NCBI GenBank assembly: GCA_007134215.1 | Contig: SLLG01000099.1 | Coordinates: 1-47,174 of the forward strand | Source: Opitutales bacterium | GTDB lineage: Bacteria > Verrucomicrobiota > Verrucomicrobiia > Opitutales > Oceanipulchritudinaceae | Length of the DNA stretch: 47,174 bases | Reading direction: 5' to 3' | Shown: one piece after another, positions 2,696-47,174 of the stretch | How the letters are laid out: the number at the start of each line of letters is the position of its first letter | How positions within the stretch are numbered: position 1 is the first letter of the stretch | Made by a program: the position numbers and the translations under genes | Notes under the pieces: model-generated | What the model was told of the DNA's origin: nothing | Seen by the model: the letters and a program-made list of their open reading frames with translations, nothing else | The model's database searches: none

Positions 2696-4093
2696 TCACT
2701 CCCCGGCATCCGCCGCAACCCGTCCCGGAGCCGAAGCCGCAATCCCTTGAAACGGATAGATCCAGCCGAGCCGGAGGATTCCCGTCAGCTCGTCCAAAGC
2801 CCGGCGCGACTCCTCCAGAAGGGACGGATCGGCGAGGTCGGCGGGCGCAAGCGTCTCGCGGTAGTGCCGCCGCACCCAATCCTCCAGCTCCCCGAGGAGG
2901 ACGTTATCGACGACCACCCGCGCGCCGAGCGACACAAGGTCCTCCCCCCGCAGAACCATACGCAAACGCAAACATGCCGGACCGCCGCCGTTGCGCATGC
3001 TTTCACGCAAATCAAAATGCAGCACCTCGACCAACGGGCACTCCGGGTCGGCAAGGCATTCGTCCAAATAACCACGGACCACGTCACTGCGCCGGCATTC
3101 CTCCGGCGCCACAAGCAGACACCCGCCCCCCGGTAAATCAAGCAGTTGGCTGTTGAACAGGTAGGTCCGCACCGCCTCCTTCAGAGAAACGCGGCTCTCC
3201 GGCACGCGAACCAAACGCAGGCGTCCCCCCGTAACCTCCGCGAAACGGCGCCCGATTTCTCCATGCGCATTCTCCCCGCCGGAAAAGGCACGCTCGTGCG
3301 TGAAGAGCGTGTCGAGGTGACCGACGCAAATCACATCATTGTGAAAAACGCCCGCGTCGACCGCCTCCGGATGTTGCTGCAAATACAGCGCATTTGCTTC
3401 CGAGATGCCGTGCCGCCGCGCCACCGCTTCCGAAGCCTCCAGAGTCTGCCGCGCCGGGAAACTCCGCGGACCGCTCTCCCCGCGGGCGGCGACCGACCGA
3501 CCGTAGACGAAAAGATGCAGTCCCGGCCCGCCCTGCCCCCACCCAAGCCGCGTGTGGTTCGCCGCCCCCTCGTCCGCAAGGGCATCCCCGCCCGACAGAG
3601 CATCGTGCACACAAAACCGGCCCGCATCGCAGAAAATCCGGCGCAGAATAGCCGTGGTACCCTTCGCTTCAATCGCCCGGTGCGGCATCGCCAATAAATT
3701 CGCCGGAGTCAGGTGCAGACGACCGTCCCGCGTATCGCCCGCGGGCGTCACCGTCGCCGCGTTCGCTGTCCACATCGCCGAAGCCGATGAAGCCGCGGCA
3801 AGCCACTCCGGTCCCCGCCGCGCCGCCTCCGCCAGGACCTCCGCGTCATTCCGCCCATGGAATCCAAGGTGCCGCAACCATCCCACCGCCGGACGCTCAT
3901 GCGGCGGAAGCACCGCCTGCGCAAAACCCCGCGCATGCAACGCCCGCATCTTTGCCAACCCCTGCAAAGCCGCGCGCCGCGGCGACGATACATGCCCGCG
4001 ATTCGCCGACGACGCCACATTCCCGCGTGACAAACCCGCGTAGTTGTGCGTCGGCCCCACCAACCCGTCAAAATTCACCTCGATGCAGTCCAT
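2696..4093 (-). CDS. astB: N-succinylarginine dihydrolase
   Basis: AstB hydrolyses N2-succinylarginine to N2-succinylornithine, CO2 and two ammonia in the arginine succinyltransferase catabolic pathway. The 465-residue length is close to the usual 445. The amino-terminus EVNFDGLVGPTHNYAGLS is a family signature. The expected catalytic triad is visible: Glu175 (LADEGAANH), His251 (VFHNDVICVGH) and the nucleophile Cys374 in NGGGPACLRLR. No other ast gene (astA, astC, astD, astE) is next to it. The neighbours are uvrC downstream and a RAYT on the other strand upstream, so the rest of the pathway is elsewhere or AstB has another role here. ATG 4093 has no better alternative. Confidence 0.93.
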   Translation of the reverse strand: MDCIEVNFDGLVGPTHNYAGLSRGNVASSANRGHVSSPRRAALQGLAKMRALHARGFAQAVLPPHERPAVGWLRHLGFHGRNDAEVLAEAARRGPEWLAAASSASAMWTANAATVTPAGDTRDGRLHLTPANLLAMPHRAIEAKGTTAILRRIFCDAGRFCVHDALSGGDALADEGAANHTRLGWGQGGPGLHLFVYGRSVAARGESGPRSFPARQTLEASEAVARRHGISEANALYLQQHPEAVDAGVFHNDVICVGHLDTLFTHERAFSGGENAHGEIGRRFAEVTGGRLRLVRVPESRVSLKEAVRTYLFNSQLLDLPGGGCLLVAPEECRRSDVVRGYLDECLADPECPLVEVLHFDLRESMRNGGGPACLRLRMVLRGEDLVSLGARVVVDNVLLGELEDWVRRHYRETLAPADLADPSLLEESRRALDELTGILRLGWIYPFQGIAASAPGRVAADAGE

Positions 4094-4161: not shown

Positions 4162-4224
4162 GTCAACAATTATTAACCCGGTTAAATATTTATTACACAA
4201 TAAAAAACCGGGTTAATAAACTTG
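4162..4224 (+). repeat. RAYT upstream element, copy A
   Basis: An A/T-rich island in GC-rich DNA, with perfect 14-bp inverted arms TTATTAACCCGGTT (4170-4183) and AACCGGGTTAATAA (4206-4219) separated by 22 bases. It begins with GTCAAC and ends with CTTG, 33 bases before the RAYT 1 ATG. The same block, read on the minus strand, precedes RAYT 2 (22001-22058): GTCAAC, then AACCCGGT, then AAAAAACCGGGTTAATAAA and TTTG. It could be a RAYT recognition palindrome, an autoregulatory operator or an untranslated-leader hairpin. The conservation is seen directly; the role is inferred. Confidence 0.75.
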
Positions 4225-4257
4225 CCTTTCTGGGACATAGGTTCCATTCACTTCGCT

Positions 4258-5277
4258 ATGAGTAAGAAGGAAACCGGATTCCCGACCCGTCCGCCGCGCA
4301 GGATTGTCCTCCACGGGCGGGATGCCGTGTATCATGTTGTCGCGCGGAGCGCGGGGCAGGCGTTTTTATTCGGCGAAGCGGAGAAAGAGATGTTCCGGGC
4401 ACAAATGCTGGCGACCGCGCTCTTTTGCGGTGTGGAGGTTTTGACATTCTGTCTGCTGGACAACCATGTGCATCTGTTGGTGCGCGTGCCTGCGGAAAAG
4501 CCGGAATTGACGGACAAGCAGCTCCTCGACCGCTGCGCCGGCCTCTACGGTGGGAAGGACCACAGCCGCCATGCCCTGACGCTGGACAGTATCCGCGACG
4601 CGCTCGCCGAAGGCGGCGCGGCACGCGAGCGCATGCGCGGGATGCTCATCGGGCGCATGTGCGATCTGTCCATGTTCGCAAAGCTGCTCAAGCAGCGCTT
4701 TTCCATTTGGTACAACCGTACACACGGTCGCCAAGGCACGCTTTGGTCCGGGCGGTTCACGAGCGTACTGGTTGAGGGCAAAGGACTACCGCTCGCCATT
4801 GTCGCGGCCTACATTGATCTCAACGCCGTTCGCGCGGGCATCGTAAACGATCCCGCGCAATACCGCTGGTGCGGCTTTGCGGAAGCGTCGCTCGGCGTGA
4901 AATCCGCGGTAGCGGGGCTCCATGGGATCAGCGGAGGCGGTTCGCCCGCCGAGGGGCTCTCGCGCTATGCGGCGCTCCTTTACCACCGCGGCGCGGCTCC
5001 GGGACGGGGCAAACCGCCGGATGCGCGGGTGCCGCCGGAGATTGTCCGCAAAGTGCGCGAACGCTACGGAACCCTCGAACCGTTCGCCAACCTGCGACGT
5101 AGGCTACGGCACGCCACGCGCGGGGGAATCGTCGGCTCCACGGAGTTCATCGAATCGTGGTTCAGCGAAAACCAGAAGCGGTTCGGCAAACGCCGCAGCG
5201 GAGCACGCAGAATCCGCGGCGGCAACTTCGGCGGTCTCCGTAGTTTCCGCGATGTCCGTCCGGATGAGTCGCAATGA
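4258..5277 (+). CDS. RAYT (REP-associated tyrosine transposase) 1
   Basis: A 339-residue single-domain HUH/Y1 transposase-like protein. The metal-binding HUH motif is DNHVHLLVRVP (His70, His72). The probable nucleophile is Tyr185 in AAYIDLNAVRAG, matching the position of the catalytic tyrosine of Escherichia coli TnpA-REP. A family box, WYNRTHGRQGTLWSGRF, precedes it. The protein aligns without gaps to RAYT 2 over about the first 190 residues, and both end in a basic GAR-RGG-LRSFRD tail. At about 340 residues it is twice the length of E. coli RayT. ATG 4258 is chosen over an in-frame TTG at 4222, which lies just after the upstream inverted repeat. The stop overlaps the next gene by 4 nt. RAYTs are usually single-copy and not self-mobile; they are thought to process REP palindromes. 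Confidence 0.88.
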   Translation: MSKKETGFPTRPPRRIVLHGRDAVYHVVARSAGQAFLFGEAEKEMFRAQMLATALFCGVEVLTFCLLDNHVHLLVRVPAEKPELTDKQLLDRCAGLYGGKDHSRHALTLDSIRDALAEGGAARERMRGMLIGRMCDLSMFAKLLKQRFSIWYNRTHGRQGTLWSGRFTSVLVEGKGLPLAIVAAYIDLNAVRAGIVNDPAQYRWCGFAEASLGVKSAVAGLHGISGGGSPAEGLSRYAALLYHRGAAPGRGKPPDARVPPEIVRKVRERYGTLEPFANLRRRLRHATRGGIVGSTEFIESWFSENQKRFGKRRSGARRIRGGNFGGLRSFRDVRPDESQ

Positions 5278-6242
5278 CACCACCCCTTGCCATCGCGCTG
5301 CACGGCGGCGCGGGTATCCTCAAACGGTCAAAGCTGGATGCCGCGGCGGACCGTGATTTCCGGACCGCGCTGAGCGCCGCACTCGACCGCGGATGGGACA
5401 TTCTGCAAGCACGGGGCAGCGCTCTCGACGCGGTCGAAACCGTTACCCGCGCCCTCGAAGACAGCCCCCTCTTCAACGCCGGACGCGGCTCAGTGTACAC
5501 CTCGGCGGGCACCCACGAAATGGATGCGGCCATCATGTCCGGACGGGAAGGCGACTTCGGCGCAGTGGCCGGCGTGACCGCAGTGCGCAATCCGGTTTCG
5601 CTGGCTCGGGCAGTCATGGAGCAGTTGGACGCCGTTTTCCTCGTCGGCACGGGCGCCGGGGATTTCGCACACGCGTGCGGCATGGCAGTGGAACCGCCGG
5701 AATACTTCCACACCACTGCCCGCGTTGAGCAACTGGAGTCGGCGCGACGGTCAAACCAAACACCTCTGGACCACGACGCTGAGGTGGAGAAATACGGAAC
5801 CGTCGGTGCGGTGGCGCTCGACGCGGCAGGCGACCTCGCGGCGGCGACGTCGACCGGTGGCATTACCAACAAACGGCCCGGGCGAGTGGGCGACTCGCCT
5901 GTGCCCGGCGCAGGCACTTTCGCGGACAACAGCACATGTGCGGTGTCGTGCACCGGCGAGGGCGAAGCCTTCTTGCGGTGCTGCGCGGCCCACGAGGTGG
6001 CAGCGCGCATGCGCCACGGCGGGGCGGGCCTCGCGGCGGCGGCGCACGCCGTCATCCACTCAACCGTTCCCGGCAAGGGCGGTCTCGTCGCGGTAGACCG
6101 AAACGGCACCGTCGCCCTGCCCTTCAACACGGAGGGAATGTTCCGCGCGTGGCGTACTTCCGGCGGGCGCGGAGGCGTCGCGATTTACCGCGGCGAACAG
6201 GGAGAAACCGCCTCACCAGCGGAACGGCCTTGGGCCCACTAG
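5274..6242 (+). CDS. iaaA: Isoaspartyl peptidase / L-asparaginase (Ntn hydrolase)
   Basis: A 322-residue plant-type asparaginase that hydrolyses L-asparagine and beta-aspartyl dipeptides. These enzymes are made as a precursor that cleaves itself before a threonine, which becomes the nucleophile. Here the cut is expected at EKYG-TVGAVALD, making Thr176 the new amino-terminus, with ATSTGGITNKRPGRVGDSP forming the substrate pocket. The alpha-subunit begins LAIALHGGAG and contains PLFNAGRGS. The start ATG overlaps the stop of RAYT 1 (ATGA), suggesting translational coupling to the transposase gene. The 3' end overlaps the convergent fmt by 30 bp. Confidence 0.93.
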   Translation: MTPPLAIALHGGAGILKRSKLDAAADRDFRTALSAALDRGWDILQARGSALDAVETVTRALEDSPLFNAGRGSVYTSAGTHEMDAAIMSGREGDFGAVAGVTAVRNPVSLARAVMEQLDAVFLVGTGAGDFAHACGMAVEPPEYFHTTARVEQLESARRSNQTPLDHDAEVEKYGTVGAVALDAAGDLAAATSTGGITNKRPGRVGDSPVPGAGTFADNSTCAVSCTGEGEAFLRCCAAHEVAARMRHGGAGLAAAAHAVIHSTVPGKGGLVAVDRNGTVALPFNTEGMFRAWRTSGGRGGVAIYRGEQGETASPAERPWAH

Positions 6243-20279: not shown

Positions 20280-20822
20280 TCAGACGCGTTCGCTGCGAGA
20301 AAATTTCCCGTTGCGCCGGTAGACGCGGAAAAACAGCGGAATCGCTCCCCGCCGGCTCACGCGTTCACTGTGCAGGCGCGGAAATTCACCCGACCATTCG
20401 GGAAAGTAAGTGTCGCCACTGATTTCAGCGTCGACCAATGTTAAAACCAACTCCTCTGCCACGGGAAGCGACTCCTTGTAGATCCGCTCGCCCCCGCAAA
20501 TCCAAACTGTCCGCCCTGCGGATTTCGCCGCCTCCAGCGCAGAAGGAAAATCCGGAAAACAATCCGGCCCCGAACGGGTCGTGGAGACGATAAACGGACG
20601 CCTGGAGCCGTCCTCAAGCGCACCGGTGGCGCCCAGCTCCTCAAAACACCGGCGCCCGAGCACAAGGCTCCCGTCGCGGGTCGATTCGAGAAAGTGATTC
20701 CAGTCCTCCGGAAGGTTCCATGGCAGGCGCCCGTTGCGCCCGATCACGCGGTTGCGGGCGACAGCGACAATGATCTTCACGGAGGCATCGGACGGATCCG
20801 GACTGGAGGCATTCGGTTTCAT
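20280..20822 (-). CDS. folA: Dihydrofolate reductase
   Basis: Reduces dihydrofolate to tetrahydrofolate with NADPH. The 180-residue protein shows KIIVAVARNRVIGRNGRLPW, then NLPEDWNHFLEST with the active-site acidic residue at Asp40 (E. coli Asp27), LVLGRRCFEEL, RPFIVSTTR and the cofactor-binding IWICGGERIYKESLP-like stretch. An amino-terminal extension of about 14 residues precedes the usual start, and ATG 20822 is the only good ATG. A thymidylate synthase gene, a common neighbour, is not present. The gap 20823-20954 upstream shows nothing I can name. Confidence 0.94.
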   Translation of the reverse strand: MKPNASSPDPSDASVKIIVAVARNRVIGRNGRLPWNLPEDWNHFLESTRDGSLVLGRRCFEELGATGALEDGSRRPFIVSTTRSGPDCFPDFPSALEAAKSAGRTVWICGGERIYKESLPVAEELVLTLVDAEISGDTYFPEWSGEFPRLHSERVSRRGAIPLFFRVYRRNGKFSRSERV

Positions 20823-20954: not shown

Positions 20955-21968
20955 TCATCCGGGCTTCTGGAGATCGCGGAAACTCCGCAAATCCCCCCAC
21001 TCTCCGCCGCGCAGACGACGTGCGCCGCTTTGCCGTTTCCGGAAGCGATCTTCGTTCTCACGAAACCATCCCTCCACAAACCGCCCCGTTCCCAGAACGG
21101 CACCGGCAGTCATATACCGCACCCGCGCACGCAACTGCTCAAATATGCCCGGATGCCCGAAGCGCTTTTCAACGGCCTCCAGGATCTCCGGTGACACCCG
21201 ACCGCCATCCGGCTTTCCGAAGCCCGCTGAAACGCCCCTTCCATACAGCAACAGCCGGTACTGCGCGACGGCGGAAGCTGCCTTCTCCTCCCCGCAGATC
21301 CGGCAAACACCCGAGACCGCCGCCTTCACCCCGGCCATCGCCTCGGAATAACCGCACCAACGATACTCCGCAGGATCCCGCACAATTCCCGCACGCACCG
21401 GGTTTAGGTCAATGTATGCAGCCACCACCCCGACCGGCAACCCCGTCCCTTCCACCAGCACACTCTTGAACCGGCCCGACCACAGCGTCCCGTGACGCCC
21501 GTGCGTACGGTTGTACCAAATCGAATACCGCTGCTTCAGTAGTTTCGCGAACATCGACAAATCGCACATCCGCCCGATCAGAAGATTCCGTATCTCTTCC
21601 CGCTCTGCCCCTCCGGAAGCCAGCGCCGCGCGGATCGTCTCCATGTCCAGCGCATGGGCACTCCGCTCCTTCCCTCCATAAAGCGCGTCGCAGCGCCGCA
21701 GCAACTCCGCGTCTTCGATTACGGGTTTCTCTCCCGGCACCGACACCAGAAGATGCACATGGTTGTCCATCACGCAGAACGTCAGCACCTCCACCCCGCA
21801 GAATAACGCCACTGCCCGCATCTGCGCACAGAACATCTCTTTCTCCTCCGCACCAAACAGCATAGCCTGCCCCGCCGTGCGCGCAATCACATGATACACC
21901 GCGTCACGCCCCGGCAACAATGCCCGCCGCACTCCAACCCGCATCTTCTTCCCTTCAAAATCTTTCAT
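20955..21968 (-). CDS. RAYT (REP-associated tyrosine transposase) 2
   Basis: A 337-residue close paralogue of RAYT 1. The HUH motif DNHVHLLVSVP places His70 and His72 at exactly the same residue numbers. The probable catalytic Tyr185 lies in AAYIDLNPVRAG, and WYNRTHGRHGTLWSGRF is nearly identical. The carboxy-terminal tail KRQSGARRLRGGEWGDLRSF matches RAYT 1 in pattern. No frameshift or missing catalytic residue is seen, so it is probably functional. It shares the upstream inverted-repeat block (22001-22058). It lies downstream of sufT on the same strand, 147 bp away, and upstream of folA. Confidence 0.88.
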   Translation of the reverse strand: MKDFEGKKMRVGVRRALLPGRDAVYHVIARTAGQAMLFGAEEKEMFCAQMRAVALFCGVEVLTFCVMDNHVHLLVSVPGEKPVIEDAELLRRCDALYGGKERSAHALDMETIRAALASGGAEREEIRNLLIGRMCDLSMFAKLLKQRYSIWYNRTHGRHGTLWSGRFKSVLVEGTGLPVGVVAAYIDLNPVRAGIVRDPAEYRWCGYSEAMAGVKAAVSGVCRICGEEKAASAVAQYRLLLYGRGVSAGFGKPDGGRVSPEILEAVEKRFGHPGIFEQLRARVRYMTAGAVLGTGRFVEGWFRENEDRFRKRQSGARRLRGGEWGDLRSFRDLQKPG

Positions 21969-22000
21969 TCAGCCAACAAGCCAAAACTTCGCCCGCATGT

Positions 22001-22058
22001 CAAATTTATTAACCCGGTTTTTTATAATTATCTTTTTACCGGGTTGATTATCGTTGAC
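22001..22058 (-). repeat. RAYT upstream element, copy B
   Basis: The counterpart of copy A, oriented toward RAYT 2. On the minus strand it reads GTCAAC (22053-22058), then an AACCCGGT arm, an A/T spacer, and AAAAAACCGGGTTAATAAA near 22005-22023. The inverted arms match except at two positions (ACCGGGTTGATTA against the expected ACCGGGTTAATAA). The spacer is about five bases shorter than in copy A, yet the dyad remains, which suggests that the arms are what is conserved. The block ends 33 bases before the ATG at 21968, the same distance as copy A. The remaining gap to sufT (22059-22115) shows nothing else. Confidence 0.75.
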
Positions 22059-22115: not shown

Positions 22116-22679
22116 TCAGAGCAGCCCGAGCTCCATCTTGCCCTCTTCCGTGATCATGTCTTGGTTCCACGGGGGGTCCCAGACGATGTCGACGGAGGCT
22201 TCGGAGACGCCGGGGACTTGCTCGACTTTGTATTTGGCGTCTTGGGCGATGGCGGGGCCCATACCGCAGCCGGGGGCGGTGAGGGTCATGTCGACTTTGA
22301 CGTCACAGCGTCCTGTATCGTCAGGCTCGGAAAGTTCCATCGTGTAAATGAGACCGAGGTCGACGATGTTTACCGGGATTTCCGGATCGTAGACTTGGCG
22401 CAGGGCATCCCAGACCGCGTCCTCGGAGGGCGGACCGCCTTCGTAGGGCGCGTCATCCGCAGCGGGGACAGCGGGCTTGGCGACCTCCTCGCCGAGCGCG
22501 TCGGCGTCTTTGCCAAGGATCTGGGCCATCCCGCCTTCCCATGTTACAGTGAAATTTCCGCCGAGCCGGTGGGTGATCATGACGCGTGTGCCCTCCGGGA
22601 TGGTGACTTGATCGCCGTAAGGCACGATTGTCGCGGTGACTTCGCGGGAAAGGGTGCGTTCGTTATCGGAGGAGCGCAT
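22116..22679 (-). CDS. sufT: Fe-S cluster assembly factor SufT (MIP18/DUF59 family)
   Basis: A 187-residue SufT. The amino-terminal half is the SufT-specific module ([19 protein letters not shown] and [10 protein letters not shown]). The carboxy-terminal half is the MIP18/DUF59 domain, with [27 protein letters not shown] (including the conserved Cys) and [13 protein letters not shown]. SufT helps mature or deliver Fe-S clusters, mainly when demand is high. It is the last suf gene, 42 bp after sufD. No sufS, sufE or sufU follows; the next gene is RAYT 2. Confidence 0.93.
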
Positions 22680-46576: not shown

Positions 46577-47174
46577 CACCCCCGCTCCGCAATGGGTGCC
46601 TCCACCCGTCCTGCACGGCGTCCAACGTCTGCGAAGGCCATCTCTGCATCTTTCAGCACCTCAACCGGTCGCGCTCCGGGCGGCCTGCCCACGCGCGAAA
46701 GCGCATCCGCCCCCGCTCCCTCCCGCAGCCACGCCTCCGTCCCCAGCGCTTTGCCACGCGTGAAAAACCGCGCCCGCAGGCGCAGCAACTCGTGCGCCTC
46801 CAGCTCGCCACCGGCCGCAGCCGCTTCCGCCAGCACCGCCGGGTCGATCCGACCGCCCGTCCCGTCGCGCTTCGACGCCGCCCCCTTCCCCAGCATCAGC
46901 AGGCGGTAGCGCGCCAGCGCACCCTCCTCGCCGCCCTCACCCGGAAAGCAATCCGCCAGCGAGCGCCGCAGCTCCGCGTCCGCGCCGCACAGCGCCGCCG
47001 CATACCCGCTCCAGCGGTAGTCTTCCGGCAGCTCCGCCAAGCCCGCCCGCACCGGATTCAGGTCGATATATGCCGCCACAAGACCCACCAGCCACGGCAC
47101 GTCCTGCACCAAAACGCTCGTGAAGCGCTCCGCCCACAGCGTCCCCACCGTGTCATACGTCTTGTTGAACCACA
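46576..47174 (-). CDS. RAYT (REP-associated tyrosine transposase) 3, 3' part
   Basis: The 5' part, including the HUH motif, is beyond the right edge, so only about 199 codons are seen. The frame is open from WFNKTYDTVGTLWAERF at the edge, then AAYIDLNPVRAG with the probable catalytic tyrosine, then EDYRWSGYAAALCGADAELR. It is clearly the same family as RAYT 1 and 2 but diverged: the middle and tail differ (FTRGKALGTEAWLREGAGAD, RPPGARPVEVLKDAEMAFAD), and the basic GAR-RGG-LRSFRD tail is absent. Whether it has its own upstream element cannot be seen. Confidence 0.8.
   Translation of the reverse strand, partial: WFNKTYDTVGTLWAERFTSVLVQDVPWLVGLVAAYIDLNPVRAGLAELPEDYRWSGYAAALCGADAELRRSLADCFPGEGGEEGALARYRLLMLGKGAASKRDGTGGRIDPAVLAEAAAAGGELEAHELLRLRARFFTRGKALGTEAWLREGAGADALSRVGRPPGARPVEVLKDAEMAFADVGRRAGRVEAPIAERG

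Follow-up and report, generated by a model that had tools for sequence, protein, structure and literature searches.

The window analyzed in this study, by which the whole stretch of 47,174 nucleotides is meant, is contig 332 of a 374-contig, 4.44-Mb, 97%-complete metagenome assembly (G000). Two RAYT genes, A and B, are found on its opposite strands, each of which is preceded by an A/T-rich block with dyad symmetry. The features at the two loci are as follows, the promoter hexamers being putative and the names of the flanking genes being based on sequence.

2696 to 4093, minus strand: divergent gene flanking locus A, which we take from its sequence to be an N-succinylarginine dihydrolase-like gene (astB)
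4162 to 4224, plus strand: block A, an A/T-rich extended dyad at the left edge of the RAYT unit
4162 to 4167, plus strand: GTCAAC, outer end of block A
4170 to 4183, plus strand: left arm of block A, TTATTAACCCGGTT
4206 to 4219, plus strand: right (promoter-proximal) arm of block A, AACCGGGTTAATAA
4222 to 4227, plus strand: putative −35 hexamer of RAYT A, TTGCCT, 36 nt before the ATG (from 57 aligned leaders)
4245 to 4250, plus strand: putative degenerate −10 hexamer of RAYT A, CATTCA, after a 17-bp spacer, its last base not being the favoured T
4258 to 5277, plus strand: RAYT A, 339 amino acids, its stop codon overlapping the ATG of the next gene
5274 to 6242, plus strand: isoaspartyl peptidase/asparaginase-like gene flanking locus A, sharing an ATGA overlap with RAYT A
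20280 to 20822, minus strand: dihydrofolate reductase-like gene flanking locus B
20955 to 21968, minus strand: RAYT B, 337 amino acids, Y1_Tnp, with REP_Tyr_transpos below cut-off
21975 to 21980, minus strand: putative degenerate −10 position of RAYT B, CTTGTT
21998 to 22003, minus strand: putative −35 hexamer of RAYT B, TTGACA, 35 nt before the ATG
22001 to 22058, minus strand: block B, an A/T-rich dyad
22008 to 22018, minus strand: right (promoter-proximal) arm of block B, ACCGGGTTAAT
22038 to 22048, minus strand: left arm of block B (5′ on the RAYT strand), ATCAACCCGGT
22058 to 22053, minus strand: GTCAAC, outer end of block B
22116 to 22679, minus strand: SufT/DUF59-like gene flanking locus B

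Both blocks are about 60 bp long, and their outer ends are mirrored as well (GTCAA ... TTGAC). Block A is laid out as GTCAA - N7 - AACCCGGTT - 22 nt - AACCGGGTT - N7 - TTG and block B as GTCAA - N7 - (T)CAACCCGGT - 17 nt - AACCGGGTT - N7 - TTG. The first-pass annotation, which described a block with GTCAAC and two arms before each of the RAYT genes, was correct as to the positions of these parts and as to the dyad of block A, the arms of which are complementary at all 14 bp. Two of its figures need to be revised: an 11-of-13 dyad was given for block B, whereas ten pairs are formed over the 13 used here, and both blocks were said to end exactly 33 bases before the ATG, whereas their final base, the G of TTG, lies 33 nt before it in A and 32 nt in B (36 and 35 nt, respectively, from the start of TTG), so that the spacing is near-identical. 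The blocks had also been called conspicuous in a GC-rich context, and they are, because the G+C content of the window is 60–68%. A search of the window for 12-mer inverted-repeat seeds with a spacer of at most 40 recovered those of copy A only, and the expectation for a perfect 14-mer dyad in Markov-1 sequences is 0.05.

RAYTs A and B belong to a subfamily, S1, that comprises ten RAYTs, distributed over four orthologous loci of three congeneric genomes, orthology being judged by the upstream neighbour DNA that the loci have in common. Locus A is represented in the window genome and G010, locus B in the window genome and G009, and loci C and D in all three of the congeneric genomes. The block is present upstream of all ten genes, one copy at locus D being reduced to a single arm and another having three. 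In a search of the whole genome, the exact dyad pattern was found at the two RAYT genes of the window only. A covariance model built from nine S1 blocks and searched over four genomes matched ten blocks, four in this genome and six in the two congeners, every one of them at an S1 RAYT promoter; no S1 block was found by this search in G002. One extra, weak match (G000:C55:13153-13221, E = 0.05) is unexplained. The block is thus located at, and limited to, RAYT promoters. With the exception of the extra match, this is the outcome of the genome-wide search that the first-pass annotation had proposed, and the dedicated link to RAYTs that it suggested, against which absence from close homologues or scatter across the genome would have told, has withstood the comparison.

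The position of the block relative to the gene was characterized by aligning 88 upstream regions on TTG, in which the distance from TTG to ATG is mostly 34–39 nt. Among 57 distinct leaders, a T is found at +28 in 61% (P = 1.7 × 10^−7, 108 tests) and an A at +24 in 40%, the leaders being otherwise unconserved. These bases would correspond to the last and the second base, respectively, of a −10 hexamer that follows a 17-bp spacer, and TTG probably acts as the −35 box of a weak σ70-type promoter; given this −10 signature and spacer, the transcript would start at the ATG or within about 5 nt of it. A consensus promoter scan of locus A called no promoter, the −10 element being too degenerate. The centres of the palindromes lie 11–17 bp upstream of TTG, or at about −46 to −52 (manual count). 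A regulatory role had been argued from identical spacing to the ATG; the regulatory position is supported by the −35/−10 signature and the near-constant spacing, although the spacing is not exactly equal. No report of RAYT promoters was found in the set of papers that was searched.

Conservation of the dyad was considered next to that of the genes. Both partners have changed in three of the arm pairs (C-G to T-A, C-G to G-C and G-C to T-A), for example in AACCGTGTT/AACACGGTT. Over nine related blocks, covariation between the arms was 0.137 compared with 0.074 in a shuffle control that ignores relatedness (17 of 500 shuffles were as high), and slid pairings reached at most 0.079; pairing within the arms of the same nine blocks showed no covariation beyond chance. 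These values do no more than suggest that the block is kept as a dyad with modestly covarying arms. Two independent palindromic operators per block were also considered, the arms being near self-palindromic (AACC-N-GGTT), but were rejected as the covariation is between and not within arms. Orthologous S1 RAYT genes have a dN of 0.09–0.15 and a dS of 0.6–1.1, which is near saturation (dN/dS of about 0.13). Since dN is low while dS is near saturation, purifying selection acts on the RAYTs, and that the arms have persisted over the same divergence implies that they, too, are selected. The distance between the arm centres is 25–26 bp for loci B and C, but 31–32 bp for A and D; these two classes differ by half a helical turn and would hardly be tolerated by a rigid double-stranded dimer. 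As single strands, S1 blocks fold as DNA hairpins (z = −5.6 for A, −2.3 for B and −7.3 for L015), more weakly in the case of L053 and L057, and the short S2, S3 and TACCGGTA palindromes of other clades form little or no hairpin.

These other palindromes emerged when the sequences preceding some 120 RAYTs, drawn from five genomes, were arranged in the order of the protein tree. Most RAYT clades of this and a sister genus have a palindrome of their own directly upstream of a CTTGNN or TTGAC box, namely AAATGCCTGGCATTT in clade S2, TTTCTTGAAGAAA in clade S3, TACCGGTA in a G002 clade and AATAATTTG-GCAGT-CAAATTATT in a second G002 clade; some RAYT genes in the comparison are without a clear palindrome. 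Similarity in the block zone correlates with RAYT identity (r = 0.38, with a permutation maximum of 0.08 and r = 0.11 for a control zone). Counts of the S3 13-mer are 16, 43 and 15 for the three congeners, zero for G002 and two for G015, with at most one match to the reversed control pattern; of the 16 in this genome, 14 are at the start of a RAYT, in some cases one cut by a contig end. Orthologous pairs of S3 palindromes with TTGACA are also found at L142 (G000:C49:18649) and L153 (G010:C110:84966-85016), where there is no RAYT; they are located upstream of a conserved 122-amino-acid open reading frame without a Pfam match and are possibly an extra target or a promoter relic. In an order-wide sample, close relatives were present in 30 of 223 genomes; in many of them, and often in families other than that of the window, the corresponding promoter position is occupied by (A)GGGACAGGCTAATAAT-TTGAC or ACCAGGTTAAT-TTGAC. 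At this position in another family, a 31-nt near-perfect palindrome, CAATAATAAATACCCTGCGTATTTATTATTG, lies upstream of RAYT L208. The case described in the first-pass annotation is therefore one instance of a wider pattern, in which the palindrome at this promoter position changes from one clade to the next; as the clades carry their own blocks at the same spot, each enzyme is suggested to recognize, and perhaps to switch, its own promoter.

P0001 and P0002 match Pfam Y1_Tnp, of which there are 47 matches genome-wide, and score 42 and 48 bits with NCBIfam REP_Tyr_transpos, below the curated cut-off of 80, the match being split by a large insertion. By alignment, and in the numbering of RAYT B, the HxH motif is at residues 70–72 and the tyrosine is Tyr185, 113 residues separating His72 from Tyr185. 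A structure model has an HUH fold like those of IS608, ISDra2 and 4er8, at low confidence (mean pLDDT of 62), the C-terminal part included. No further DNA-binding domain was found by Pfam in the extra regions of the RAYTs, and no known double-stranded-DNA-binding domain was recognized in the RAYT. A third RAYT in the window (46577-47174, minus strand), about 44% identical to RAYTs A and B, is truncated by the contig end to its C-terminal part; the RAYT copy number is uncertain because many contigs of the assembly end inside RAYT genes. In eight S2 paralogues of G000 (L027, L028, L030, L034, L025, L029, L017 and L022), the first ∼230 residues are nearly identical and the C-terminal ∼110 residues are very different in sequence as well as in length, which gives the impression of a homogenized catalytic part and a diversified tail. 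In the unlinked pair L075/L086 of G002, the open reading frames are identical over roughly positions 200–900, the 30-nt leaders and the flanks are unrelated, and yet the palindrome and TTGAC are kept (windowed identity). Recent gene conversion is likely for this pair, and the combination of homogenized reading frames, unrelated leaders and a kept palindrome points to gene conversion of the reading frame together with separate selection on the promoter element.

The loci themselves indicate that block and gene behave as one unit, the two being present or absent together through gain or precise loss. Locus B contains both in G000 and G009 and is empty in G010, where the sufT-like and dihydrofolate reductase-like genes are adjacent (208 bp); locus A contains both in G000 and G010 and is empty in G002, where the flanking genes are adjacent (185 bp). 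On its right side the unit at B ends no more than about 10 nt from the RAYT stop codon, and on its left side it ends near GTCAAC, divergence blurring the exact junction. Edges of paralogue alignments near the palindrome were also examined as edges of a mobile unit, but homogenized reading frames with unrelated 30-nt leaders were found instead; as these edges mostly reflect gene conversion and selection on the palindrome, the idea of a mobile unit rests on the empty sites. In one S3 group of G009 (L105, L108, L110, L112 and L114), a conserved inverted repeat, TAATTC-CGGCAAAGTA-GAATTA, is located ∼30–55 nt after the RAYT stop codon and is possibly a right end. The ATGA overlap between RAYT A and the isoaspartyl peptidase-like gene (5274-5277) is found in two species, in the window and at L064; translational coupling of the two genes is possible.

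The reading that is best supported, to which we give about an even chance, is that the block is the recognition element of the RAYT clade itself, adjoining the −35 box of its promoter and giving rise to autoregulation. As would be expected of an autoregulatory operator, it lies at the gene's own promoter and is specific to that gene. The main alternative, which is less probable, is that the block chiefly forms the left end of a RAYT unit that is, or once was, mobile. As a subterminal hairpin or terminal repeat like those of IS200/IS605 elements or TIRtrons, it would then serve in cleavage and strand transfer, its proximity to the promoter being incidental. The joint presence or absence of block and gene at loci A and B, the unit edges near the stop codon and GTCAAC at B and the long DNA hairpins of S1 blocks such as A and L015 would all be explained in this manner, the GGGACAG of other families resembles the TIRYT motif GGGGWSAS (PMC3733652), and three RAYTs of other clades (L056, L061 and L224) have an inverted downstream copy. 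However, no inverted or direct copy of the block was found downstream of the S1 RAYTs, and most other RAYTs likewise have none, the inverted copy being present at those three only. In addition, the same RAYT loci are shared across species with low dN/dS, the S3, S2 and TACCGGTA palindromes scarcely form hairpins, and the promoter spacing is maintained. The two readings are compatible, because transposon ends often contain the promoter of the transposase.

Binding of the block by a host transcription factor or nucleoid protein, or its action as a mere A/T-rich UP element, is considered improbable. UP elements are A/T-rich DNA directly upstream of the −35 box, which is where this A/T-rich block is placed, and some S3 copies are distant from RAYTs, including the pair upstream of the 122-amino-acid reading frame in two species. 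However, an UP element has no need of a dyad, yet the arms covary, and many dedicated host factors would be needed because each RAYT clade has a different palindrome. A classical REP or REPIN, or a transcript hairpin acting as a terminator, attenuator or translational cis-element, is very improbable: dyad symmetry and hairpin potential are present, but GTAG/GTGG is absent from the hairpin foot of blocks A and B, the outer ends of which are GTCAA/TTGAC, neither the pattern search nor the covariance search found dispersed intergenic copies, and there is no downstream partner, so that the first-pass view that the block is not a classical REP is upheld. A terminator or attenuator was rejected, as no T-run follows the dyad and the putative transcript start is downstream of the block.

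Of the known systems that come near to S1, TIRYTs, or TIRtrons, are defined by repeats that flank the gene on both sides; the repeats have the consensus GGGGWSAS, and some of them are said to stand about equally far from the gene (Di Nocera et al., 2013; PMC3733652). As in S1, a long RAYT-type Y1 tyrosine transposase has an inverted repeat just upstream (Y1_Tnp, HxH, the tyrosine and the fold are all present here), and sister families of the order have GGGACAG-type motifs that are near to this consensus. However, S1 has no downstream partner and no GGGGWSAS-like motif in its blocks, which have AACCNGGTTAAT instead, and its element adjoins a −35 box, an association that PMC3733652 does not describe. 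In TnpAREP subclass 2.3, the proteins are long, with an additional C-terminal region and more than one copy per genome, the median distance from HuH to the tyrosine is 110 residues, no REP-like sequences were found at subclass 2.1 or 2.3 genes in the survey, and subclass 2.1 corresponds to RAYT group 1 of Bertels et al. (PMC6006769). The RAYTs studied here resemble subclass 2.3 in these measures and may belong near it, with 113 residues from HuH to Tyr, 337–339 residues in total, an extra C-terminal region and 47 Y1_Tnp matches, whereas a clade-specific palindrome is present at their promoters. REP–RAYT systems (REPtrons; Nunvar et al., 2010; PMC2817692) pair each RAYT type with a cognate palindrome that co-evolves with the protein. 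REPs are headed by GT(A/G)G, are usually numerous and lie on both sides of the gene, none of which applies to the S1 block. IS200/IS605 elements share with S1 the HUH-Y transposase fold (IS608, ISDra2, 4er8) and a hairpin upstream of the gene, but the right-end hairpin was not found for S1, the loci of which are fixed and under purifying selection.

If the block is the recognition element of its own RAYT, the following mechanism may be proposed. The dyad, both inverted AACCNGGTT arms of which have some seven A/T bases and then TTGAC on their outer side, would adjoin the upstream end of the −35 box in a weak σ70-type promoter that produces a transcript from the ATG or a few bases from it. The RAYT driven by this promoter would bind the block, either as a double-stranded dyad or as a hairpin extruded in supercoiled or replicating DNA, and, once bound beside the −35 box, would tune the transcription of its own gene. 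An activator-like role or the blocking of an UP element would be likelier than simple occlusion because the site is upstream of the −35 box. That the RAYT binds the block, that it regulates its own gene and in which direction, and where transcription begins are what we infer from the arrangement described above.

RAYTs are widespread relatives of transposases that persist in the chromosomes of bacteria and show no evident mobility as elements. For the long subclasses 2.1 and 2.3, a clade-specific palindrome at a fixed place in the promoter of the RAYT itself provides a concrete candidate target, and the different palindromes of S1 and of S2 and S3 offer a test of cross-specificity. Such palindromes may also explain how many RAYT paralogues stay separate from one another. 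More speculatively, and in our view improbably, the RAYTs of this lineage may be self-targeting transcription regulators, the dozens of paralogues per genome being insulated clade by clade through private promoter palindromes; the HUH fold or the C-terminal extension would read promoter DNA, and palindrome and RAYT specificity would co-diverge while the catalytic part is homogenized by gene conversion.
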